DNA from: Bacillota bacterium
GTDB taxonomy: Bacteria; Bacillota; Clostridia; Oscillospirales; Feifaniaceae
NCBI GenBank assembly: GCA_030705925.1
Contig: JAUZPM010000014.1
Span: 1 to 40,525, forward strand
Direction: 5' to 3'
DNA length: 40,525 nt
Shown here piece by piece: positions 17,975 to 33,112 of the stretch. The notes beneath the pieces were generated by a model. That model searched no databases and was not told the origin of the DNA. It saw only the letters and a program-made list of their open reading frames with translations. A program made the position numbers and the translations under genes. The first letter of the stretch is position 1, and every line of letters starts with the position of its first letter.

Positions 17975-18016
17975 AAAAATGCCGGCTTCGGGTCAGTCCC
18001 CAGCCGGCATTTTTAT
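17975..18016. terminator. Bidirectional terminator between hydrolase and A2M genes
   Basis: A 13-bp perfect stem (17975-17987 with 18002-18014) holding TGCCGGCT/AGCCGGCA, with a 14-nt loop. There is an A-run on the left and a T-run on the right, so it can serve both convergent genes. Confidence 0.9.
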
Positions 18017-18018
18017 AT

Positions 18019-21000
18019 TCAGTTGATTATCACGCTCTGCCGCTCGCCCTGACCCCATTCATTCGTCTGTTCAGCCTTGACAATGGGAGCTTCGCAGATA
18101 TAGACCCCGGGCGTCACGTTGCGGACATAATAAGAGAAAGTGACCATTCCCGGGCTATCATTATAAGTTTTAAAACGCAGATTCTGCTTTTCAGAGCTGT
18201 TAAGGTATACCTTCCATGAGTCTTTTCCGCTGTATCTAGCGCCGGTCGGAACATAATCCTGAATGCTAATATAGCCTTTGGGCGCGTTCTCAACAGTTAC
18301 CGTGACCTTTTCCTCATCGCCGACGTTGCTTTCGGGCGTTACCTTCTTTGTGATTCTAAGGTCTTTTCTTCCTGTGCTCTTATTCTCCGAGGCATAGCCG
18401 GTGTAGAATGCCATAACACCGACATCCCCGGAAATCTTGCTGAAGGATGTGTCGGCAAACTGTTCCTTTGTAAAGGAGAGACACTCAAAACCGCGCTTAT
18501 CAAGCTCTGCCGTTTCCGTCTTGCCGCCCTGCGTATATGAGAAGGATGCGCTGGCGCTGGATTTAGGTTTAAAATGGGTTACATAGACCATCTGTTCGAG
18601 GACGGTTAAGTCTGTCTGCGACTCAGCGCTGCACAGGTATCTTACCAGAAGATCGGCTGACGGCAGCCTCAAAATCGAAGCTGTTATAGAAGCGGCGGCC
18701 GTCATTTCGATATTCATGTCGTTGTCGTCGCCAGCTTTGTAGTATAACGCCGGATCTCCCCATTTATCATATGTGTCTGTAAGCTTTGGGGCGATCAGCT
18801 TATTATAATAATCCTTAGCGCCTTCAAAATCGCCCGCAAGCGCAAGCCCGGCGGTAAGGCGCAGTTTATCAAGCTCTGAGAATCCGCCCCCGTTCTTTAA
18901 TAATGACTTAATGTCAATAAGCACCGGGGAGCCGAGCGAAGCAAGCCCCATATACGCAGCCGCGACCTGTTCGGGCGTTGAATCTTCACCGGAAATTACA
19001 CCATACAGCGCCGAATTCACCGAACTTTTATTGATATAATCGGGAGCCGCCGACGCAATTCGCCCTGTAAGAACAGGGTCGCCCTTTTTGTCTTCACTCA
19101 AAAGCGGTATAAGTCCATCTGCATTCTTTATTTCATAAGGCACGTCATTTTCAGGGCTTTTTCCATAGATATCACTATAGATTCGGTTCCATGCAAAAGA
19201 GCTTGCAATCTCCGCGTCCGAGCGCCAACTGCCATTATGGGCGAGGTTTGAAAGCACCCGGTTATATACCAGATAATCATTGCTAAAAAACTCAAGATAG
19301 ACCGGATAGCGGACTGGCTTTATATTCTTTATGTCGTCAAAGTTTATGATGTCCGAATACTGTGCCTGCAATCCGCAGTCTATCACCGAAAACGGCTTTA
19401 AAATGCTGTCTGAAAGATTTCCGTTCGAGCCGGTTATCGTCAGTGTATAGTTGCCCGCAGAAAGCGTTCCGAATTTGAAAATCGCATCGTCCATGGCTTT
19501 TGCGGACACATCAACCGACTTTGAAACGCCGTTTCCCTCTACTGTGGCTGTGTAACTAATATCCTGTGTTCCCTCGACCTCTGTGCCATATGCGCGGGAC
19601 GAGAAATTCACCGTATCCCCCGTTATGAAGGTATCAGGCACCACGGGCGACACGAACATAGCAAGCTTGCTCGTGATATCGATCTTGCTTGAACCTGCGC
19701 CAAGATCAGGGCTTACGGCAAGTGTTGTTATTCGCCATGACGTAAGGTTGTCGGCAAGGGTGAATTCTGTCTTAGCCTTTCCGTCTTTATCGGTTTTGAG
19801 AGTCAAAAAGGCAGTGTTGTCAACAAATTTAGAGCGCGGTTTTGGTGAAGCAGGCGCTGTAGGAGAAACATCACTTGCGCTATCGCTTGCGCCCCCTCCG
19901 CCGGATGCAGAGCCGTAATATTGCGTGTATGAAACATAACTGCATAGACTGGGATAATATATTCTGCCGTACAGGGTAGCGAGCATATTGACCCCCTGCG
20001 GAGCGATTGCGAACTGCGCCTCGTCGACAACACTCATGCAAATGTCAGCGTTCGGGACAGGTTTTCCGCTTTTGTCCAAAACCGTAACTTCCGCATTCAC
20101 CTTGTCTGATGGACGGTAAACCTCTTTATCAGTCTTGACGTTAACAGTAAGCTCTTTTTCGGAAGGATCGTAACTGATTCCACTTCCCTCTATCGGGAAT
20201 ATATGCTTACCGTCAAAATATGCCCCGATAAGCTCGAAATTAGGAATAAGCTTTTTATCGAAGTTTACCGTGAATTCATCTTTTGTGCTTAAAGTCACGT
20301 CAAAGGTATCGCTCTGCACCTTTGCGGTAAGATACCTGCCGTTATTTCCAAGCTTCAGCTTGCTGTTGTTTTCATTTATAAAAAAGGTAAGAGGGTTCTT
20401 TTCGTTAATCGTCAGTCTGTTCGGATTTCCGACAGCTTCAAACGAGTAATTCTTATATTGAGACGGTTCTGGTCTGCCGCAATAGTACGGTTCATAAGCA
20501 CTTAGCCCTGATATTGTGTCACGCCCCCGCCCGTCCTTATATGAGAACTCGTATTCATCCCAAGCGTTATCTGATATGTAAGGAAGATCAGTGACCTTGA
20601 ACTTGCCGTTCACAGTCTTGAAAGTTCTGGTTGTCACATCAGTTCTGACTTCATAAGTTTGGAAACTTATCGTCTTCTTGTTGATAAAATCATAATCAGA
20701 ATACGTGCCTGTGGACACATAGTAGTAATGGGTTTTTGTGAGCGTAACGTCTATATCCACCGGCTCGCCTTTGATATTTTCAGGAAAGTTGTCGCTGTGA
20801 TAATCAGCTTCTGTGTGGATACCGGACAGGTTCATTTTATTTGTTTCAACGTCGATCGTTCTGTCCTGATTTACTGTTGCGTAGAGCATCGTATCTCGGT
20901 TGAAGGTCATCACCGAGCCGGACGCAACTTGCTCTTTGTTTTCGGCGCTGTCGGTATAGATGCGATAATCCAGTGAATCCGGCTCCCACCATTCCGCTTT

Positions 21001-22890
21001 TTCAACACTTTGCTTTATCCAGACTTTTCCGCTGCCGTCCCTGCCGAGGTTGAATTTCTTAGTATATTTAAGATTTCCGTCTCCGGAAGCGTCTACAGAA
21101 ACAGGAAGATTTGATGTGGGCGAACCCTCGAAGAACTGGCAGTTTACATCAACGACGACCGGATTTTCAGAGGGTTCGACATAAACCTCTTGCTCAGGCT
21201 TTGCAGAAAAAACATAAACAGGTTTTACATAATCAGATATTTCCACATATGTGCCGAAGATCGCATCGTCCCCATCAACAACCCTGATGCTGTAATAATC
21301 AGACTTGAGATCTGAAAAGGAAAGCTCGCAGCTGAACGTGCCGCTGTCGCTCAAAGTCACCGGCGTCTCATACAAATCATCATCGCCGTCACTTATCACA
21401 GCCTTAAGATTTTCGGGTTTTTTTACGCCATCCTTTCTCGGGCGGATCAAACCCCACATCTGCACTTTATCCGTAGGAAGATACATCTCTCTGTCCGTAT
21501 ACAAATATGAATAGTAATCTTCAGAGCTAGACCCGTAATAGCCTCCGTAATAGTCACAGCAATAATAACTGCTCAGATCTGCAATATCTATAAAAATATC
21601 GCCTCCGTTTTGAATCTTTAAAACGCAGTCATCCTGATAATAATAATTATCCCCTCTGATCTTGTCCCATTTGATTATGGTGCTGCCGTTCTTGCCAGTC
21701 ACGCCGGAATCCGTGCCTTTTTCATTTTTGAATTTGACCGTGGCGCCAGAAACCGCCCCGCTCGACCTGTTCACCCAGACGAGTCCGTCATTGTCGTTGA
21801 ATGAACCGTAAACAGAAAGGTTTGACACCTGAAAATACTTATATACACTCTGCTGTTTGCCCTTGTTGTCCGTCGCTGAGATAACAGCACAGTAAAATCC
21901 GAGGTTAAAATTCTGCGGCATAACTATATATCTATCCCAGCTTTGCCCTTTTGTCAGCTCGCTTGTAAATGTCATGAATTCCGATGACTTGTAAAGATCG
22001 GGTTTAAAATCAAAGCCATGGCTGTCGCAGTATGCAGAAAGCTCTGCAAGGTAATCATCAGGGGAAAACCGGTAGACAGAAACCTTGAATTTTTCATTTT
22101 TATAATCGTCCGCAACCGAAAGCCCCAAAGCAATCGGATCAGAGGGTATGAATGTGCCGAAACTGTATTTATTGCTGTAGAAAATCGTATCTTCCGGCTC
22201 TTCTATCGTTTTAAACCTGAACTCTATTCCGCTTTCAACCTTTTCGCCTTCATTGTTTTTGACGTTAGTGGAAACAGTCACTTTATAAACGGTGCCATAC
22301 GAAAGCTCAGCGTCAGGGATAAAAGCAGCCGTATCTGCGAACATTTTAAACTGACCGGTAACATTCGGCGTAATGCTGAAAGCTGATTTTAGGCTGTCAA
22401 GGTCGACGTCACTTTCTGAAAACTCAAGCTCTATACCCGCATTCAGATGTACGGATGAATCCTCGTCGTCCGGCCTTGTGCCCAGAATCTTGAATTTCTG
22501 CTCGGTCTGGAATGCCCATTTGTTTACGGTATCCCCATTTTCATCAGTCAGCGACACCGTAACGAGGACATTGCTTTCAAACGGTTTGTCAGGCGTAATG
22601 ATATATGTACCGTCAGGCTGTGCCTCTGTCTTAAACGTCCTTTTAGGCGTTATTACTATTCTTTTCTGAATAAAATCCTCTGTAATGCCGTCTCCCTTTA
22701 CAATGAATCCCGAATCGACGGCAATGCCCTTTTTTGTTTCCTTTTGCGCTGTAACCGTCACAGACTGTCCATCAATACTATCCGCCGCCGTGGAACCTAG
22801 CGGAAAGACTGATAATATCATTGAAACCGATAGGAATATCGTAAGCATTTTGCCCGACAGCCTATTTTTGAATTCGAAAAATCCAGCCAT
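18019..22890 (-). CDS. Secreted alpha-2-macroglobulin family protein (paralogue A)
   Basis: A 1623-residue protein. Start chosen at ATG 22890: GGAGGGG precedes it and the signal peptide (hydrophobic run ending GSTAAD) follows. Order: an SbsA/Big_5-type Ig domain near 150-230 (ELEFSESDVDLDSLKSAF); the A2M MG2-like signature YTDREMYLPTDKVQMWGLIR near 460; further macroglobulin-type domains; the diagnostic LTSWRITTLAVSPDLG near 1090; an alpha-helical thioester-domain-like region; and a C-terminal receptor-binding-like domain ending GERQSVIIN. The CxEQ thioester motif is absent, so covalent trapping of proteases is unlikely. There is no lipobox and no wall anchor. It has its own promoter, conserved with its neighbour, and was probably born by tandem duplication. 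A protease-trap or envelope-guard role is inference. Confidence 0.88.
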   Translation of the reverse strand: MAGFFEFKNRLSGKMLTIFLSVSMILSVFPLGSTAADSIDGQSVTVTAQKETKKGIAVDSGFIVKGDGITEDFIQKRIVITPKRTFKTEAQPDGTYIITPDKPFESNVLVTVSLTDENGDTVNKWAFQTEQKFKILGTRPDDEDSSVHLNAGIELEFSESDVDLDSLKSAFSITPNVTGQFKMFADTAAFIPDAELSYGTVYKVTVSTNVKNNEGEKVESGIEFRFKTIEEPEDTIFYSNKYSFGTFIPSDPIALGLSVADDYKNEKFKVSVYRFSPDDYLAELSAYCDSHGFDFKPDLYKSSEFMTFTSELTKGQSWDRYIVMPQNFNLGFYCAVISATDNKGKQQSVYKYFQVSNLSVYGSFNDNDGLVWVNRSSGAVSGATVKFKNEKGTDSGVTGKNGSTIIKWDKIRGDNYYYQDDCVLKIQNGGDIFIDIADLSSYYCCDYYGGYYGSSSEDYYSYLYTDREMYLPTDKVQMWGLIRPRKDGVKKPENLKAVISDGDDDLYETPVTLSDSGTFSCELSFSDLKSDYYSIRVVDGDDAIFGTYVEISDYVKPVYVFSAKPEQEVYVEPSENPVVVDVNCQFFEGSPTSNLPVSVDASGDGNLKYTKKFNLGRDGSGKVWIKQSVEKAEWWEPDSLDYRIYTDSAENKEQVASGSVMTFNRDTMLYATVNQDRTIDVETNKMNLSGIHTEADYHSDNFPENIKGEPVDIDVTLTKTHYYYVSTGTYSDYDFINKKTISFQTYEVRTDVTTRTFKTVNGKFKVTDLPYISDNAWDEYEFSYKDGRGRDTISGLSAYEPYYCGRPEPSQYKNYSFEAVGNPNRLTINEKNPLTFFINENNSKLKLGNNGRYLTAKVQSDTFDVTLSTKDEFTVNFDKKLIPNFELIGAYFDGKHIFPIEGSGISYDPSEKELTVNVKTDKEVYRPSDKVNAEVTVLDKSGKPVPNADICMSVVDEAQFAIAPQGVNMLATLYGRIYYPSLCSYVSYTQYYGSASGGGGASDSASDVSPTAPASPKPRSKFVDNTAFLTLKTDKDGKAKTEFTLADNLTSWRITTLAVSPDLGAGSSKIDITSKLAMFVSPVVPDTFITGDTVNFSSRAYGTEVEGTQDISYTATVEGNGVSKSVDVSAKAMDDAIFKFGTLSAGNYTLTITGSNGNLSDSILKPFSVIDCGLQAQYSDIINFDDIKNIKPVRYPVYLEFFSNDYLVYNRVLSNLAHNGSWRSDAEIASSFAWNRIYSDIYGKSPENDVPYEIKNADGLIPLLSEDKKGDPVLTGRIASAAPDYINKSSVNSALYGVISGEDSTPEQVAAAYMGLASLGSPVLIDIKSLLKNGGGFSELDKLRLTAGLALAGDFEGAKDYYNKLIAPKLTDTYDKWGDPALYYKAGDDNDMNIEMTAAASITASILRLPSADLLVRYLCSAESQTDLTVLEQMVYVTHFKPKSSASASFSYTQGGKTETAELDKRGFECLSFTKEQFADTSFSKISGDVGVMAFYTGYASENKSTGRKDLRITKKVTPESNVGDEEKVTVTVENAPKGYISIQDYVPTGARYSGKDSWKVYLNSSEKQNLRFKTYNDSPGMVTFSYYVRNVTPGVYICEAPIVKAEQTNEWGQGERQSVIIN

Positions 22891-22933
22891 AATCCCCTCC
22901 AACAAATATCTTATTTTGTCACCCATCAAGTCA

Positions 22934-22961
22934 ATTGTAACATTTTTCCTCGATATGTCAA
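22934..22961 (-). promoter_or_regulatory. Promoter of A2M paralogue A
   Basis: On the minus strand: TTGACA (22961-22956), a 16-bp spacer and TACAAT (22939-22934), with TGT before the -10. The spacer core GAGGAAAxATGT is shared with the promoter of paralogue B at 27952-27979. Confidence 0.85.
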
Positions 22962-22974
22962 TAAATCCCTGCAA

Positions 22975-23006
22975 AAAAAGAGGCTTTCTTACGAAAGCCT
23001 CTTTTT
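22975..23006 (-). terminator. Terminator of A2M paralogue B
   Basis: A perfect 14-bp stem (22975-22988 with 22993-23006) around a TTAC loop, with A- and T-runs at the ends. It lies 5 bp past the stop at 23011, so the two large genes are separate transcription units. Confidence 0.93.
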
Positions 23007-23010
23007 AAAT

Positions 23011-26000
23011 TTAATTGATTATCACGCTCTGCCGCTCGCCCTGACCCCATTCTGGATAATCTTCGGAAGTCACGATAGGCGCCTCACTTACATAAACACC
23101 GGGGGTGACGTTTCGGATATAATATACGATTTGTGAAGTTTCAGAACAATGGATGAATATCTTTATGTTCTGCTTTTCAGATGAAGCAAGAAAATAATTT
23201 CGATCATAATCGTCACTTCCAAAGCCGCAGAACCGCGCCCCTGTCGGAATATAATCCTGTATCAAAAAGTCGCCGTATGGCTCGCCACCAATATCTATTA
23301 CGACTTTTTCCATATCGCCGACGTTGCTCTCTTTTGTGACTGTTTTCGTCACTTCGAGCGTTTTTTTGTCTGTATCCTTGATCTCAGACGGCAGCCCGGT
23401 GTAATAAGCCGCAACGCCCACGTTTCCCGACTCTTTAAAGTCTGCGTTTTCAAACTGCTCTTTCGAGAATGAAACAAACTTTATGCCGAGCTTTGAAAGA
23501 TCGACCGTCTCAGTCTTTCCGTTATCGTTATATGAAAATGATGCGTTATTATTTGAAGCCGGCTTGAAATTCCTGACATAAATCACCTGTTCAAGAACTG
23601 GGAGATATGTTTCAGACTTGTTTTCGCAGAGATAACCCGCCATTTTATCGGCAGATGGCAGATGCAGCAGCGATGCCGTTACCAAAGCCGCCCCTGTTGC
23701 CGGAACGTTCCAGTAATTGTTTCCGGTATCGTAATACACGCCCGTGTTTCCCCTGTCGTCTTTCCAGTCGAGCAGTTTCGGCACAATCAGTTTATCAAAA
23801 TACTTTTTCGCGCCATCAAAGTCCCCTGCATAGGCAAGCCCGGCAATCAGCCGCAGCGTGTCTATCTCTGTAAAACCTTTGTTGTTTTTCAGCAGCGACT
23901 GTATGTCGATAAGCACAGGATCTCCAAGCGCCGCAAGCCCCATGTAGGAGGAGGCAACATCGATCGAAGTCGCCTCGGGATTAACGATTTCCGAATAAAG
24001 AGCTGATTCCATGCTTGTTTTGTTTATATATTCGGGCAGCGCGGCTGCTGCGAGCGCAGATAGAGTGGCATCTTCGTTATTCTGGTCGGCATAATAATTG
24101 TTCGGATTATATGTAAATGTCAACAAATCATAATCATTTTTAATATCGGCTATCTTGTCTAAGCTGCTTCTGTCGATGCCTGTGCACTCTTTATAGATCA
24201 GGTCGTTTGCGAATACACTTGCCATTCTTGCGTCCGTCCGCTCGCCGTAACCTCCCGCAAGCTTTGAAAGCACCTTGCTGTACATGGCGTAATCGCTGTT
24301 ATAAAATCCAAGGCTTACCGGGAAACGTGCGGCATTTATATTTTTAATGTCGTCAAAGGTCGTGATTTTCGAGATAGTCGCCTCAAGCCCGCTGTCAACA
24401 ACTGAAAACGGCTTCGCTATCCCGTCTGAAAGCTTTCCGTCTGTGCCTTTTATCGTAAGCGTATAATCTCCGACAGGAAGCGTTCCGAATTTGAATATTG
24501 CGTCTTCACACGCCGCGGTCTTTACATCTACTGTTTTGTTGACGCCGCTGCCCGTGACGGTCGCCGTATAGTTCACATCATCCTTGCCGTCAACACTGCT
24601 TCCGTATGCCCTTGATGAGAAGTTGACCGTGTCGCCCGAAATGAACTTCTCCGGCACTATCGGCGACAGGAACATCGCAAGCTTAGTCGAAACGTCGGTC
24701 GTGCTTGAGCCCGCCTTAAGATCACTGCTCACTGCAAGCGCCGTTATCCGCCATGTCGTCAGGTTGTCGGCAAGGGTGAACTCCGTTTTCGCCTTTCCGT
24801 CTTTATCTGTCTTAATTGTTAAAAACGCAGCGTTGTCATTGAATTTCGTCCTCACTTCACCGCTGCCGTCTCCGCCGCCCATTCCATCTCCGCCGCCATA
24901 ATCTTGAGGCACAGAAGAAGATGAATAGGTCGTAATTTCCGGATAATATATTTCACCGTAAAGTGTTCCCAGCACATCGGCATACTGCTGGTTTACGGCA
25001 AAATTAGCCTCATCGACAACGCTCAGGCACACATCGGCATTTGGAATAGGGGTCCCGTATTTATCCTTGACTTCGACATCCGCGTTCACCTTATCTGATG
25101 GGCGGTAAACGTCTTTATCCGTCTTGACGCTGATAGAAAGCCCTTTTTCAGAGGGATCATAGTCAACGTAGTTATACTGAATGCCGTATGTATTCGTTCC
25201 GTCGAAACACGCCCCTACCAACATAAAGTTCGGCATGTATTTTTTATCATAATTAATCGTGAACTCGTTGGTGCTTAAAGTGTTTACATCAAACGTATTC
25301 TTCTGAACCTTTGCAACAAGTATCCTTGCGTCGCCGCTCAAATCAAATTTTTGCTCGTTTTTCATGACGTCAACGGTCAGCGGTTTTTTTTCATTGAATC
25401 CCAGATCATAGTTTTCGCCGCTTTCGGCTGAGTAGAAGTCATATCTGTTTACGCCGTCAAAGTAATCATTATAATCGTTGAAAAACGAAGTTGAATATTT
25501 TGTATTGCGCCCCTTGCCGTCTTTATAATTGAAATCAAATTCATACCATCCGTTCTCATACGGGATGTCCGCAAGCGTATATTTCCCGCCCGACGTTTTA
25601 AATGTCATGGTATCTGTTTTTTTTGCCTCTTCATACGTCGGGATATAAATCGTCTTCTTGTTTAAAAAATCGTAATATGCCTCATTGCCGGTCTGCTGAC
25701 TGAAGTGGCGTGTTATTGTCAGCGTAACGTCGACGTCAGCCGGAGCTCCCATTATGTTTTTGGGATATTTGTCGCCGTTAAGATCGTCTGCGGATTTTAA
25801 GTTAGTCAGATCCATTTTGTTTGTCGTAACATCGATCGTAGCTTTGCCATCCTTATGCTTAACGTCGGCTTGAAGCATTGTGTCACGATTTACGGTGATG
25901 ACCGAGCCGTCCGCTCCAAATCCATCGTCATAATAATCTTCAGCGCTTTCGGCACTGACATAAAAATTTAAATTTTCAGGCTTCCACGACATGATATCAG

Positions 26001-27906
26001 CGTCCTGCTTTATCGAAAAAGTGCCGTTACCGTCACGGTCAAGCTTTAAATGGTATTCTTTCCTCTCTCCGCTTTCATACATAGACACCTTAACAGGAAG
26101 CCCTGAGGCGGGCGTCCCCTCAAAAAACTGGCTATTCACATCGATAACAGCTGGATTTTCAGCCGTATCTATATTGACCTCTTTTTCAGGTTTTGCCGTC
26201 ATTACATAGGTCGGTTTTTCATAATCCGAAATATTGATATAGCTGCTTGACAGCTCACTTTTCCCGCTGGTAAGAGTGATTCTGTAATAATCCGCCGCAA
26301 GACCGGTGACAGGGATTTCACATTTATAAACCCCGCTGTCACTGAGTGTCACCGGCGCTTCATAAATACTGTTGTCAAACAAACTGTTGTTATCTGCATC
26401 CAGCTTTATCTTGAGGTTTTCCGGCTTTTTGGCGGTGTCAGTCCTCGGGCGCAGAACGCCCCATATCTGTATCTTATCGGTAGGCAGATATAATTCTCTG
26501 TCAGTATATATGTATGAGTAATAATCATCGCCGGCATAGTTTTCATCGCCGTCAAAAGCATAAAAGCCTTCTTTATCGGCAAAATCTATGAAAACGCCGC
26601 CGTCCTTTTCTATCTTTAAAATAAGGCTGTTATTCCTGCAAGTGTTGTCAAACTTTTTGCCCCATTTTACAACTGCGCTCCCGTCACTGCCGGTTTTCCC
26701 GGAATCAGTATTCTTATCATATATAAATTTGACCGACGCGCCCGAAACAGGTTTTTTTGTATCCGCGCTGTTGACCCAGACTAAAGCGTCATTTCCGTTT
26801 AAAGACGAATAGACGGAAAGGTCTGACACCTGAAAATACATCGAGACGCTCTGCGGATTGCCGTCACTATCTGTGATCGTTGCCTTCATATAGTAATAGC
26901 CTTTGTCAAGTTTTTGCGGCGCGGGGATATACCTGAAATCGTCCCATTCGCTCTGCCCCTTGTATAAAGGAGAATCGAATGAAAGCTTTAAGGTCATTTT
27001 TTTCATATCAGGCTCAAAAGCTATTCCCCTGTCCGAGGCATAAGCGTCAAGCTCGTCAAGATAAGCCTTGTCATCCTTTAAGCTGTAGATTTCGACGTTC
27101 GCCTTTTTGTCCTCATAGCCACTGGCAACATAAGTGGACATCACCGGCGTTTCAGACGGAAGGAAAGATGAAAAGCTGTACTTTTCCCAGTAAAAAACAG
27201 TATCGTCATCGTTTTTATCCTCGACGCTGAAGGAAAATTCCTTTTTATCGCCTATCGTTTCGCCAACGCTGTTTTTGACATCTTTATCGATCGTGACACT
27301 GTATGTGGTGCCGCCCTTGAGCGGTTCAGACGAGATGAAGACAGCGGCGTTGCCGAACATTTTGAATGTTCCCTTGACCTCCGGATTTATATGGAACGAT
27401 GACGTCAGGCTTGCAAGGTCGACATCACTCTGTGAAAAATAAAGCTCGATGCCGGCATCATTTGCAACATAAGTATTACCGTTTCTCGGGATGGTGTTCA
27501 AAATTTCAAATTTGCTCTCGGTTTGGAATGCCCACTTGTTGAGCGTGCCCCCATTTTCATCGGCAAGCGTTAGGATGACAAGCTTGTCGCTGTCAAACGG
27601 AATATCGGGTTTAATTTTATATGTACTGCCTGATTTTGAGACTTTAAACGTCACTGCAGGCGTGATCGTAATCCTTTTTTCAACGATATTCTGAGTAAGC
27701 CCCTTGCCCGAAACCGTAAATGAAGTGTCTTCGGCAATGCCTCTTTTTGCATTTGAATCAGCCGTAACAGTGACCGAGGATGGGTCATAGGCAGAATCGT
27801 CAGCCATGACATTTACAGGAACAAGAGAAAAAATCATCGAAACCGCAATGATCACCATGAGCAGCTTTTTTGCAGGGCTTTTTCTTTTTTTCCAGAACTC
27901 TTTCAC
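23011..27906 (-). CDS. Secreted alpha-2-macroglobulin family protein (paralogue B)
   Basis: A 1631-residue protein with a GTG start and GGAGGGG 5-6 nt upstream. The signal peptide (SPAKKLLMVIIAVSMIFSLV) is followed by the same architecture as paralogue A: a Big_5-type domain (ELYFSQSDVDLASL), MG2 signature YTDRELYLPTDKIQIWGVLR, the A2M signature LTTWRITALAVSSDLKAG, a helical thioester-domain-like region and an ending identical to A (GERQSVIIN). Where thioester-bearing relatives have a CxEQ motif it reads GYGERTDARMAS, so the Cys and Gln are lost. The two proteins align end to end by eye. Bacterial A2Ms often sit beside a PBP1C gene; none is present here. Released or loosely wall-bound localisation is inferred. 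Confidence 0.88.
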   Translation of the reverse strand: MKEFWKKRKSPAKKLLMVIIAVSMIFSLVPVNVMADDSAYDPSSVTVTADSNAKRGIAEDTSFTVSGKGLTQNIVEKRITITPAVTFKVSKSGSTYKIKPDIPFDSDKLVILTLADENGGTLNKWAFQTESKFEILNTIPRNGNTYVANDAGIELYFSQSDVDLASLTSSFHINPEVKGTFKMFGNAAVFISSEPLKGGTTYSVTIDKDVKNSVGETIGDKKEFSFSVEDKNDDDTVFYWEKYSFSSFLPSETPVMSTYVASGYEDKKANVEIYSLKDDKAYLDELDAYASDRGIAFEPDMKKMTLKLSFDSPLYKGQSEWDDFRYIPAPQKLDKGYYYMKATITDSDGNPQSVSMYFQVSDLSVYSSLNGNDALVWVNSADTKKPVSGASVKFIYDKNTDSGKTGSDGSAVVKWGKKFDNTCRNNSLILKIEKDGGVFIDFADKEGFYAFDGDENYAGDDYYSYIYTDRELYLPTDKIQIWGVLRPRTDTAKKPENLKIKLDADNNSLFDNSIYEAPVTLSDSGVYKCEIPVTGLAADYYRITLTSGKSELSSSYINISDYEKPTYVMTAKPEKEVNIDTAENPAVIDVNSQFFEGTPASGLPVKVSMYESGERKEYHLKLDRDGNGTFSIKQDADIMSWKPENLNFYVSAESAEDYYDDGFGADGSVITVNRDTMLQADVKHKDGKATIDVTTNKMDLTNLKSADDLNGDKYPKNIMGAPADVDVTLTITRHFSQQTGNEAYYDFLNKKTIYIPTYEEAKKTDTMTFKTSGGKYTLADIPYENGWYEFDFNYKDGKGRNTKYSTSFFNDYNDYFDGVNRYDFYSAESGENYDLGFNEKKPLTVDVMKNEQKFDLSGDARILVAKVQKNTFDVNTLSTNEFTINYDKKYMPNFMLVGACFDGTNTYGIQYNYVDYDPSEKGLSISVKTDKDVYRPSDKVNADVEVKDKYGTPIPNADVCLSVVDEANFAVNQQYADVLGTLYGEIYYPEITTYSSSSVPQDYGGGDGMGGGDGSGEVRTKFNDNAAFLTIKTDKDGKAKTEFTLADNLTTWRITALAVSSDLKAGSSTTDVSTKLAMFLSPIVPEKFISGDTVNFSSRAYGSSVDGKDDVNYTATVTGSGVNKTVDVKTAACEDAIFKFGTLPVGDYTLTIKGTDGKLSDGIAKPFSVVDSGLEATISKITTFDDIKNINAARFPVSLGFYNSDYAMYSKVLSKLAGGYGERTDARMASVFANDLIYKECTGIDRSSLDKIADIKNDYDLLTFTYNPNNYYADQNNEDATLSALAAAALPEYINKTSMESALYSEIVNPEATSIDVASSYMGLAALGDPVLIDIQSLLKNNKGFTEIDTLRLIAGLAYAGDFDGAKKYFDKLIVPKLLDWKDDRGNTGVYYDTGNNYWNVPATGAALVTASLLHLPSADKMAGYLCENKSETYLPVLEQVIYVRNFKPASNNNASFSYNDNGKTETVDLSKLGIKFVSFSKEQFENADFKESGNVGVAAYYTGLPSEIKDTDKKTLEVTKTVTKESNVGDMEKVVIDIGGEPYGDFLIQDYIPTGARFCGFGSDDYDRNYFLASSEKQNIKIFIHCSETSQIVYYIRNVTPGVYVSEAPIVTSEDYPEWGQGERQSVIIN

Positions 27907-27951
27907 GTTATCCCCTCCAAATTATACCTTCATAGGGCATATTACCTAATT

Positions 27952-27979
27952 ATTGTAACATATTTCCTCTACCTGTCAA
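27952..27979 (-). promoter_or_regulatory. Promoter of A2M paralogue B
   Basis: On the minus strand: TTGACA (27979-27974), a 16-bp spacer and TACAAT (27957-27952), with TGT before the -10. The same boxes, spacing and GAGGAAA core occur upstream of paralogue A. Confidence 0.85.
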
Positions 27980-27981
27980 GA

Positions 27982-28009
27982 TAATAAAAGGGGCGTCATT
28001 TGACGCCCC
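27982..28009 (-). terminator. Terminator of the SUV3-like helicase gene
   Basis: GGGGCGTCA (27990-27998) pairs with TGACGCCCC (28001-28009). On the minus strand the stem is followed by TTTTATTAT. It lies 12 bp after the helicase stop. Confidence 0.88.
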
Positions 28010-30063: not shown

Positions 30064-31530
30064 ATGTCACAAATCACGATTAAAAACCTTACCTTTGCCT
30101 ATGACGGCAGTTATGATAATATCTTTGAAAACGTATCGCTGAACATCGACACCGACTGGAAGCTAGGTTTCACCGGGCGAAACGGTCGTGGCAAAACGAC
30201 ATTTTTAAAGCTGCTCACGGGTGGCTTTGAATATTCCGGCAGCATAAGCTCGTCAATCAAATTCATGTACTTCCCATTCGACGTCCCCGATAAAAGCATG
30301 GATACCGTAAACGTCGTTGAAAACATCTGTCCGGGATTTGAGCTTTGGCGGCTTTTAAAGGATTTGCCGAAGCTTGAAGTATCGGAAGACGTGCTTTACC
30401 GCCCCTTCGAAACGCTCAGCAACGGCGAGCAGACAAAGGTACTCATCGCATCGCTTTTCTTAAACGACAGCAGCTTTCTGCTTATAGACGAGCCGACAAA
30501 CCACCTTGACGTAAAGGGGCGAAAGCTTGTGAGCGATTATTTGAACAGCAAGAAGGGCTTCATACTCGTTTCGCACGACAGGGTTTTCCTCGACAACTGC
30601 ATAGACCATATTCTTTCGATAAATAAGACGGATATCGAGATTCAGCAGGGCAATTTTTCGACATGGCTGCTCAATAAAGAGTATCAAGATAACTTTGAGA
30701 TTTCCGAAAACGACAAACTAAAAAAGGACATAAAGCGCCTTTCAGAGGCTGCAAAGCGCACTGCCTCATGGTCGGACAAAACCGAGAAAAGCAAAAAATC
30801 GGGCGATGTACCGGACAAGGGATATGTCGGGCATAAAGCCGCCAAAATGATGAAACGCTCAAAATCCGCCGAAGCCCGCAAGCTTTCGGCTGTCGAGGAA
30901 AAGTCAAAACTTTTGAGGAATATTGAGGAGTCGGAAGACCTTAAAATCACGCCGTTGAAGCATCACAGCAGGCGGCTTATCGAGGCAAAAGACCTCTCTA
31001 TATTTTACGGCGACAAAAAAGTCTGCTCTGATATAAACTTCACACTAACTGAGGGCGAGCGGATAGCGCTTACCGGGAAAAACGGAAGCGGCAAATCTAG
31101 CATTTTAAAGCTGATAACCGGCGAGGGCATCTCCCACTGCGGCCAACTTGAAACCGCATCCGGACTTGTCATCTCATATGTTCCGCAGGACACGTCCTTT
31201 TTACAGGGCGATCTCAAGAGTTTTGCCGAGGACAGCAACATCGACGAAAGCCTTTTTAAGGCGCTGCTTCGCAAAATGGATTTTTCAAGGGTGCAGTTTG
31301 AAAAAGACATGTGCGATTTCAGCGGCGGTCAGAAGAAAAAAGTGCTCATTGCGAAAAGCCTGTGCGAAAAGGCGCATATATATATCTGGGACGAACCGCT
31401 CAATTTTATCGACGTAATGTCCCGCATACAGATCGAAAATTTGATAACACAGTATAAACCAACGATGCTCTTTGTCGAGCACGACTTATCCTTTGTGAAT
31501 AATATCGCAACAAAATGTATTGAATTTTAG
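30064..31530 (+). CDS. ABC-F ribosome-protection protein, Lsa-like
   Basis: A 488-residue soluble protein with two ATPase domains and no membrane segment. Start is ATG 30064, with AAGGAGG 6-7 nt upstream. Domain 1: Walker A GRNGRGKTT (about 38), signature LSNGEQ (about 117), Walker B LLIDEPTNHLD. An interdomain linker of about 90 basic residues follows. Domain 2: GKNGSGKSS (about 338), FSGGQ (about 418) and IYIWDEPLNFID. The first residues (ITIKNLTFAYD) and the DEPLNFID variant recall Lsa/CplR-type proteins, which dislodge lincosamides, pleuromutilins and streptogramin A from the ribosome. The leader with attenuator fits drug induction. The ABC-F class is firm; the drug spectrum is inferred from remembered resemblance. 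Confidence 0.9.
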   Translation: MSQITIKNLTFAYDGSYDNIFENVSLNIDTDWKLGFTGRNGRGKTTFLKLLTGGFEYSGSISSSIKFMYFPFDVPDKSMDTVNVVENICPGFELWRLLKDLPKLEVSEDVLYRPFETLSNGEQTKVLIASLFLNDSSFLLIDEPTNHLDVKGRKLVSDYLNSKKGFILVSHDRVFLDNCIDHILSINKTDIEIQQGNFSTWLLNKEYQDNFEISENDKLKKDIKRLSEAAKRTASWSDKTEKSKKSGDVPDKGYVGHKAAKMMKRSKSAEARKLSAVEEKSKLLRNIEESEDLKITPLKHHSRRLIEAKDLSIFYGDKKVCSDINFTLTEGERIALTGKNGSGKSSILKLITGEGISHCGQLETASGLVISYVPQDTSFLQGDLKSFAEDSNIDESLFKALLRKMDFSRVQFEKDMCDFSGGQKKKVLIAKSLCEKAHIYIWDEPLNFIDVMSRIQIENLITQYKPTMLFVEHDLSFVNNIATKCIEF

Positions 31531-31589
31531 TAAAATTTTAAAAATCCTGAGCAAACTATAGTCAAAACAATTTTGAAGATGGTGATTAT

Positions 31590-32018
31590 ATGTCAAAGGA
31601 TACCGAACTGTTAAATTATATCTACAAAAATGCCGAAATGGGCAAAAACTCGATTTCACAGCTCATCGACATTTCAGACGACACAAATTTTAGAAATGTG
31701 CTGAAAAGCCAGCTTACCGAGTATCAGAATATTTTCGACAAATCGAAAGACAAGATGAAAGCGCTTAACCACAACCCGGACAGCATCGGCGCCATTGCAA
31801 AAGTGTCGACCTACATGTCGGTAAAGGGCAATACGCTGATCGACAAGACTTCGTCTCACATGGCGCAGATGATGATTCAGGGCAGCACGATGGGTGTGAC
31901 CGACATCACAAGACATCTTAAGGATTATGATAATTCAGACCCCGAAGTCAAAGGCCTTGCTGACAAACTGCTCAAAACCGAACAAACCAACATCGACGAA
32001 ATGAAAAAATATCTGTAA
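31590..32018 (+). CDS. Small all-helical cytoplasmic protein, conserved hypothetical
   Basis: A 142-residue protein with no signal peptide, membrane segment or cysteine. Sequence character (ELLNYIYKNAEMGKNSISQL, then long amphipathic helices with Met-rich HMAQMMIQGSTMG) suggests a four-helix bundle, perhaps ferritin-like in overall shape, but no metal ligands are arranged convincingly. I recall similar short clostridial proteins of unknown function. GGTGAT precedes the ATG. It lies 59 bp after the ABC-F gene with no terminator between, so it may be co-transcribed. The structured RNA candidate starts right after its stop codon. Confidence 0.75.
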   Translation: MSKDTELLNYIYKNAEMGKNSISQLIDISDDTNFRNVLKSQLTEYQNIFDKSKDKMKALNHNPDSIGAIAKVSTYMSVKGNTLIDKTSSHMAQMMIQGSTMGVTDITRHLKDYDNSDPEVKGLADKLLKTEQTNIDEMKKYL

Positions 32019-32285
32019 AGCTGGCAGACGCTCGAAAAAGGCAGGCAGACGAAGAACAGGCGCTCGTCGCTGTATGCAGATACAGCAGGGCGCCTGTTAA
32101 CGAAGTAAGCAAAAGTGCCACAGGTATGGGGTGGCAGAGCCATTTTGTGTTTAAAAACACAACCTGAAGATCACGTTTAAATATCTGATACTTCAATGTT
32201 GTCTTATCATATATGTGCAATCACTTTTGCGGCGCGTGTACTTTTTCGACAGTCTGAAACCCGCACAGGCGGGCTTTTTATTATA
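32019..32285 (+). ncRNA. Candidate structured non-coding RNA
   Basis: The non-coding stretch has a long-range closing stem: 32025-32040 pairs with 32241-32256 (5 bp, a 2x2 internal loop, 9 bp). Inside it is a compound hairpin, 32055-32063 with 32090-32098 (9 bp) enclosing 32069-32075 with 32080-32086 (7 bp). Two more hairpins follow: TGCCAC/GTGGCA (32116-32121, 32131-32136) and TTGTGTTT/AAACACAA (32145-32162). The closing stem is followed by a terminator (32260-32283). No reading frame fits. I could not match it to 6S, tmRNA, RNase P or SRP RNA. It may be a free-standing RNA or the processed 3' end of the upstream mRNA; no convincing promoter of its own was found. Confidence 0.55.
32260..32283 (+). 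terminator. Terminator of the candidate RNA
   Basis: CCCGC (32260-32264) pairs with GCGGG (32269-32273) around ACAG, followed by CTTTTTATT. It is short but G+C-rich and placed 3 nt after the closing stem of the candidate RNA. Confidence 0.75.
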
Positions 32286-32330
32286 TTCCAATAAAAAATA
32301 ATAATTTTTTTATACATATTAAATAAAACA

Positions 32331-32353
32331 TGTTATAATAGGTAATCGATTAC
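32331..32353 (+). promoter_or_regulatory. ThuA-like gene promoter with LacI-type palindrome
   Basis: An extended -10, TGT-TATAAT (32331-32339), is followed at 32342-32353 by the perfect palindrome GTAATCGATTAC. A central CG inside an even-length palindrome is typical of LacI/GalR-family operators. The -35 (TATACA, 32311-32316) is weak. Overlap with the start of transcription suggests repression. Confidence 0.7.
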
Positions 32354-32377
32354 AACATTATGTCTGGAGTGACGATC

Positions 32378-33112
32378 ATGGTAAAAGTAACAGTGTGGAA
32401 CGAATACATCCACGAAAGAGAGCGTGAAAACGTTGCGGCAATATACCCGAGCGGTATACATAATTGCATCGCCGAATTTCTAAAAGCAGCCGGCATGGAT
32501 GTAAAAACGGCGACTCAGGACATGCCTGAACACGGTTTGACCGAAGATGTTTTGAATGATACCGATGTTTTGATTTGGTGGGGACATGCGGGACATAAAA
32601 ACGTTGACGACGAAATAGTAGACCGTGTATATCACCGTATCATGGAAGGAATGGGTCTCATAGTCCTTCACTCCGGCCACGCTTCCAAGATATTTAAGAA
32701 GATATGCGGAACCCAGTCGCAAAAGCTCAAATGGCGTGAGGACGGCGATAAAGAGATATTGTGGGTCGTTGATCCCGGACATCCGATCGTGTCCGGTCTT
32801 GACGAAAAGATAGTCCTTGAGCATGAGGAGACCTACGGCGAGCATTTCTGCATCCCCCAGCCGGACGAGCTTGTATTCATAAGCTGGTTTGAAGGCGGCG
32901 AGGTATTCAGAAGCGGCTGCTGCTATCACAGGGGCAAAGGCAAGATATTTTATTTCAGACCCGGTCATGAAACCTTCCCTATTTACCATAACCCAGAGAT
33001 ACAAAAAGTTATCACCAACGCCGTAAACTGGGCGAACACAAGCGGCGCTCCGACCGTTGAATACGGTCACACAAAGCCGTATGTGCCTATCGCCAAATAC
33101 GAACAAAAATGA
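32378..33112 (+). CDS. ThuA-like domain protein
   Basis: A 244-residue protein. Start at ATG 32378, since GGAGTGA lies 5-6 nt before it and overlaps the upstream in-frame ATG at 32360. The sequence follows the ThuA (trehalose utilisation, class-I-glutamine-amidotransferase-like) fold: an N-terminal strand [45 protein letters not shown] and [14 protein letters not shown]. The repeated GH motifs and HEETYGE are typical. The family is linked to sugar keto-modification in rhizobia and carbohydrate breakdown elsewhere; its reaction is not firmly known. The LacI-type palindrome at its promoter fits sugar control, but no LacI gene or sugar transporter is near. A shared terminator hairpin lies at its 3' end. 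Confidence 0.88.

Follow-up and report, generated by a model that had tools for sequence, protein, structure and literature searches.

A probable IS1182-type MITE with a conserved inner fold at a terminator hairpin of a Bacillota bacterium

The feature described here lies between two + strand genes of the window, i.e., the whole 40,525-nucleotide stretch of DNA that was analysed. The upstream gene (31590-32018) encodes a 142-aa protein with no Pfam match, and its TAA stop codon abuts the feature. The downstream gene (32378-33112, +) belongs to the ThuA family (PF06283). Positions 32019-32256 (+) hold what we interpret as a mobile element copy with a truncated left end, followed directly by a hairpin, T2, at 32257-32279 (+; AAACCCGCACAGGCGGGCTTTTT), whose sequence differs at every copy of the element. 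The terminator within it, from 32260, is the sole + strand terminator-like site in 31500-32500, and we regard T2 as the intrinsic terminator of the gene before the element. The ORF list contained no + strand reading frame of at least 50 aa within the element, and a promoter search inside it returned no clear candidate. Elsewhere in the window, we observed four 255-bp direct repeats at the contig start (1-909; 83-92% identity in the compared part). Two further stretches within 18010-28000, ~ 5 kb apart, were 71-76% identical over several blocks, and each holds a 51-bp block (18010-18060 and 23002-23052, 94%).

A sequence-only reading of this DNA had described a candidate structured RNA, and its individual stems were recovered. 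The long-range stem pairs 32025-32040 (CAGAC-GC-TCGAAAAAG) with 32241-32256 (CTTTTTCGA-CA-GTCTG), forming 5 + 9 = 14 pairs around a 2x2 loop. The compound hairpin contains a 9-bp part (AACAGGCGC, 32055-32063, with GCGCCTGTT, 32090-32098) and a 7-bp part (GCTGTAT, 32069-32075, with ATACAGC, 32080-32086). The fold was non-random, as that reading had supposed: the 267-nt stretch reached -99.8 kcal/mol against -71.6 ± 4.8 for shuffled sequences (z = -5.87), and none of the 200 shuffles was as good. The terminator placed 3 nt past the stem is also present (CCCGC-ACAG-GCGGG-CTTTTT from 32260), but it is not the element's own, being the downstream copy of the target's hairpin.

In the comparative structure, the closing stem P1 is formed by a 5′ strand at 32025-32039 (+; CAGAC GC TCGAAAAA), where the inverted-repeat motif occurs in an inner copy, and a 3′ strand at 32242-32256 (+; TTTTTCGACAGTCTG), which is the right terminal inverted repeat (TIR) and carries the motif seen in IS1182-family right ends. 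P1 thus includes the inverted-repeat ends, with the right TIR pairing with the inner copy of the TIR motif. P2 is the compound hairpin (32055-32098, +) with the conserved internal loop TCGTC / AGG. A second long-range stem, P3, was seen by comparison and missed by the single-sequence fold; its strands are GCAAAAGTG at 32109-32117 (+) and CACTTTTGC at 32222-32230 (+). P4, a CCAC...GTGG hairpin read from the sequence at 32118-32134 (+), is short in this genome and reaches 13 bp in relatives.

No known family had been recognised by eye, and the Rfam covariance-model search of the window gave no match either. At the gathering score, none of 4227 Rfam families, including 6S, SRP, RNase P, raiA, riboswitches, HEARO and the group II intron, matched the window or five relative loci, and permissive scans yielded nothing reaching that score. 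A known RNA family was ruled out by these searches.

With the stretch as query, BLAST against the same genome gave 13 matches on different contigs (78-100% identity), nearly all of which stop at or near the position equivalent to 32256. At that sensitivity, BLAST returned nothing from another 58 genomes belonging to the family and order. A covariance model of the own-genome copies detected about 17 near-full-length copies and additional fragments in this genome; the element is short (~ 240 bp), non-coding and dispersed, as a MITE should be. The covariance model R2 matched the window at 32013-32256 with 135.6 bits (E = 1.5e-35, a rough value from a home-made model). A wider-range search found relatives in another genus of the order, and an exact-pattern scan of gut Clostridia MAGs returned at least 120 stretches; the same kind of scan did not find the element in viral contigs. 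A 43-copy model had matches in 47 of the 391 class genomes sampled, representing 31 genera, and since at most five matches were scored per genome, copy number in this search is underestimated. In the Ruminiclostridium MAG RGIG8806 (G394), a first look gave 85 candidate places. Five contigs of this MAG (C1, C8, C18, C76 and C78) end inside the element, which indicates that the repeats break assemblies and that copy numbers are again underestimated. Two tandem element copies with CTGA common at the junction were observed in the genome studied here (G000:C105:272-615). These searches did not support the proposal of one large RNA gene, regulatory or structural, with its own terminator, and the locus instead appears to carry one copy of a dispersed mobile element.

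The aligned copies share one layout, in which hairpin T1 precedes the element and hairpin T2 follows it. T1 and T2 have one and the same sequence, that of a whole terminator-type hairpin, and this sequence differs per locus. A complete element starts with CAGCTTGTCGAAAAA, which folds back as hairpin H, and terminates in TTTTTCGACAGTCTG, and the inverted ends of complete copies read CAGnnTGTCGAnAAA…TTTTTCGACAGTCTG. Other subfamilies have CAGCGTGTAGACAAAG or CAGCGTGTCGATAAA as their left starts. T1 equalled T2 at 86 of the 136 right ends of the first set, although a few of the lowest-scoring among the 86 may be chance; many right ends without this identity sit at the end of a locus or contig. 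The two hairpins were also identical at 28 of 29 distant loci, each from a separate genome. The duplicated hairpin ranges from 16 bp (AAGCCCGTAAGGGCTT) to 36 bp, tracking hairpin size, so that the target-site duplication expected of a MITE takes here the form of a whole hairpin. In one case an empty site was found: a locus occupied in SIG529 has a single hairpin at the orthologous site of RGIG2157 (72% identity). The A/T content of the flanks was symmetric. The sense:antisense ratio in tandem contexts was 11:1 for this genome and 5:19 and 7:3 for relatives, and no rule of orientation with respect to neighbouring genes held across lineages.

The window copy retains only the right TIR, the inner copy of the left motif and the downstream hairpin. 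It lacks H and T1, and no target-site duplication is present at the copy itself. Because it has one hairpin and no left TIR, its identity rests on the relatives; the left hairpin and the upstream hairpin copy have presumably since been lost. We must also note that the H-less copies (window 32019, L003, L004, L005, L013, L042 and L043) start near-identically with (A)GCTG(A/G)CAG, and not at scattered deletion points. This common start may reflect a second usable left end, or a single deletion followed by amplification.

The TIRs are shared with autonomous insertion sequences of the IS1182 family, of which four (L232, L233, L235 and L270) were compared. In the Sutcliffiella plasmid locus (L235), which has an annotated IS1182 transposase, the hairpin AAAGCACTTGTCTAAAAAGACAGGTGCTTT stands on both sides of CAGCTTGTAGACAAA...CTACGGTCTG. 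In the Peribacillus plasmid locus (L233), an annotated IS1182 transposase lies between identical whole hairpins, and the TIR is CAGACTGTAGACAAA. L232, from a viral contig, is flanked by two different hairpins; its left TIR, CAGACTGTCGAAAAA, shows the motif that the window element has. L270 comes from G409, a genome that also bears the element; its IS1182-type gene is enclosed by the TIR-like CAGATTGTTGAAAAA and TTCTTCGACAGTCTG, and one hairpin stands at either side, the two not identical. Moreover, the left hairpins of L234 and L236 resemble H. A PF13751 (IS1182-type) fragment was found in the genome studied here; it is decayed, AAGCGCGGTTTAACCGCGCTT and CAGCCTGAAGACAAAAG stand before it, and it has a hairpin and a left end of the form CAG...TGAAGACAAA. 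Its protein is ~ 75% identical to annotated IS1182 family transposases. The search of this genome turned up no intact IS1182, and a PF13751 match was present in only 6 of 27 element-rich genomes, which are MAG assemblies in which repeats assemble badly.

The element shares the palindromic or terminator target of IS1182 and encodes no DDE transposase (PF13751) of its own. We filed it as a MITE of IS1182, and not as an IS1182, because the transposase partners occur only at separate loci. The inner core was looked for in seven IS1182-type loci and was not found there. The unpaired left ends in G394, considered as candidates for an autonomous element with the same core, were all 240-340 bp long or cut by a contig end. 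An IS3-type transposase was also considered as the partner; at L032 (G000:C2:1-452), next to a contig start, its C-terminus stops ~ 50 bp before the right end of an element. This candidate was dropped since IS1182 elements have the ends and the hairpin duplication, and at L032 the probable event was the insertion of an IS3 into an element copy.

Since complete IS1182s share both the ends and the hairpin duplication, we read the window feature as a non-autonomous transposable element (MITE) of IS1182 type, and give this reading a probability of about 0.87. Sequence comparison shows multiple copies, IS1182-type ends, whole-hairpin duplication and a conserved fold, and the window copy would be an insertion in the terminator of the 31590-32018 gene. 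In the mechanism that we infer, an IS1182-family DDE transposase acting in trans would bind the CAGnnTGTCGAnAAA ends and would recognise the palindromic, cruciform-prone terminator by shape, not by sequence. Joining of the element would take place at the hairpin's feet, and the entire hairpin would be duplicated by gap repair. As a result of the duplication, the upstream gene would keep a terminator with its T-run. A transposase other than that of IS1182 is possible as the mobiliser.

As reported for IS1272, a member of the IS1182 family, insertion occurs at terminators without sequence preference (PMC4923244, PMC5678879) and replaces or deletes the target stem-loop (PMC5678879, PMC4923244). 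Our elements and the IS1182s L233 and L235 differ from IS1272 in duplicating the whole hairpin. Such a duplication corresponds to "pathway b", which was only modelled in PMC5678879, and the elements presented here display its outcome. The IS1182 family, including IS1272 / TnSha1, has inverted ends of the CAGnnTGT(C/A)GAnAAA type like those of our element, in some members a left-end hairpin beside the TIR, and terminator hairpins targeted by shape (PMC4923244; PMC5678879). Unlike IS1182, the window element is ~ 240 bp long and has no transposase gene. The 2024 MITE review (PMC10969869) does not mention IS1182. The BOX elements of Streptococcus pneumoniae (PMC3049150) are similarly short, multi-copy and intergenic, with a stable predicted RNA fold and modular inserts; our element differs from them in its ends and sequence, in the whole-hairpin target duplication and in a fold kept across at least 31 genera. 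It is possible that the element was listed previously as an unnamed motif, e.g., among the thousands in PMC8040213.

The covariance analysis that the sequence-only reading had proposed revealed a structure conserved in related genomes with strong covariation. The alignment comprised 43 copies, and H, P1, P2, P3 and P4 were drawn from one sequence, which favours this structure over slid versions, although the margin is large. Paired cells amounted to 95.3%, compared to 83.2% in shuffled and at most 47% in slid versions, and the covariation score was 0.336, compared to 0.130 and at most 0.079, respectively. Of the 67 pairs, 39 had changes on both sides. Among the conserved nucleotides are CGTCGGCGTAC...GTACGGTAGAG in P2, and loop sequence is conserved in P2 and around P3. 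The apical loop of P2 is the site of extra hairpin modules in other subfamilies. Optional nested modules of P2, e.g., GGCAAGGATGCC followed by a second long hairpin, were observed in L095, L102, L112, L119, L189 and others, giving element lengths near 242, 310 and 337 bp, and L119 holds tandem repeats of a module of ~ 80 nt.

Were double-stranded DNA the sole constraint, G-U and A-C intermediates would be expected at equal rates. Counted on the tree, WC>GU changes in P1-P4 outnumbered WC>AC changes 47 to 11 (p = 2e-6), and for P2-P4 alone 30 to 8 (p = 0.0005). This excess suggests that one strand is selected to fold, and we conclude from the aligned copies that the inner ~ 200 nt is under such selection, as RNA or as single-stranded DNA. 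A strongly conserved, covarying core of ~ 200 nt is unusual for a MITE. The fold could instead be a by-product, arising from DNA palindromes or a passive spacer and not from selection for an RNA or single-strand function, and two observations point that way: changes in H are symmetric (WC>GU 7, WC>AC 5), as in a DNA palindrome, and MITEs often fold strongly (review PMC10969869). The difference of the inner stems from H did not itself reach significance (p = 0.13). Nevertheless, the inner stems stay paired through many double changes, and the 47:11 preference for G-U over A-C intermediates is not predicted by a constraint on double strands only, which leaves the by-product explanation improbable in our judgement. 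We favour a role of the core, as RNA or single strand, that would serve the element in cis, in mobility or in host tolerance of the insertion. The more specific idea that the core works as an RNA, or as a single strand of DNA in folded form, and takes part in the element's own movement or in its targeting of terminator hairpins is tentative, and we hold it to be rather unlikely.

The same strong fold, the covariation with strand asymmetry and the conserved loops in P2 and around P3 would suit a host structured non-coding RNA gene or a cis-regulatory RNA (riboswitch, 6S-like or raiA-like). Such an RNA would not be expected to recur many times within a genome, next to unrelated genes and with a duplicated hairpin flanking every copy, nor with an orientation to its neighbours that varies by lineage, and no Rfam family matched, so that we consider a host RNA very unlikely. 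A SINE-like retroelement, whose RNA would enter terminators through target-primed reverse transcription, duplicating the hairpin as its target and leaving 5′ truncations, might account for L107, in which a hairpin is joined directly to mid-element, for the several copies in this genome that start at the same point beside H, and for selection on one strand. The junction in L107 has a short shared GGT, however, and a deletion would account for it equally well. Inverted ends on both sides are held in common with a DDE insertion-sequence family that makes identical hairpin duplications, and the copies do not keep one direction with respect to the terminator: those seen first lay one way, the relatives did not, and a SINE-like version with terminator-tied orientation was rejected. 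Judging from the ends, the L107 junction and the orientation, we regard the retroelement origin as very unlikely. HEARO / IscB and TnpB guide RNAs are structured non-coding RNAs inside small multi-copy mobile elements. In Rfam the window element matches neither HEARO nor IS605-type RNAs; its ends and hairpin duplication are of IS1182 DDE type, and no guide segment was recognised in it.

A sequence that resembles a classic orphan structured RNA would thus be a mobile element, which motif-discovery pipelines may split into many orphan RNAs listed as unrelated. The IS1182-type MITE proposed here joins three themes: shape-based targeting of terminators, whole-hairpin duplication of variable length, and a fold kept in at least 31 genera within an element that lacks a transposase. 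If the core is active as RNA, one may ask why a DDE-type element would need one. If it acts in movement or targeting, it would represent a structured-RNA-bearing DDE transposon system across a whole bacterial class. With copies in the 3′ ends of many genes, the element may alter gene ends across genomes.
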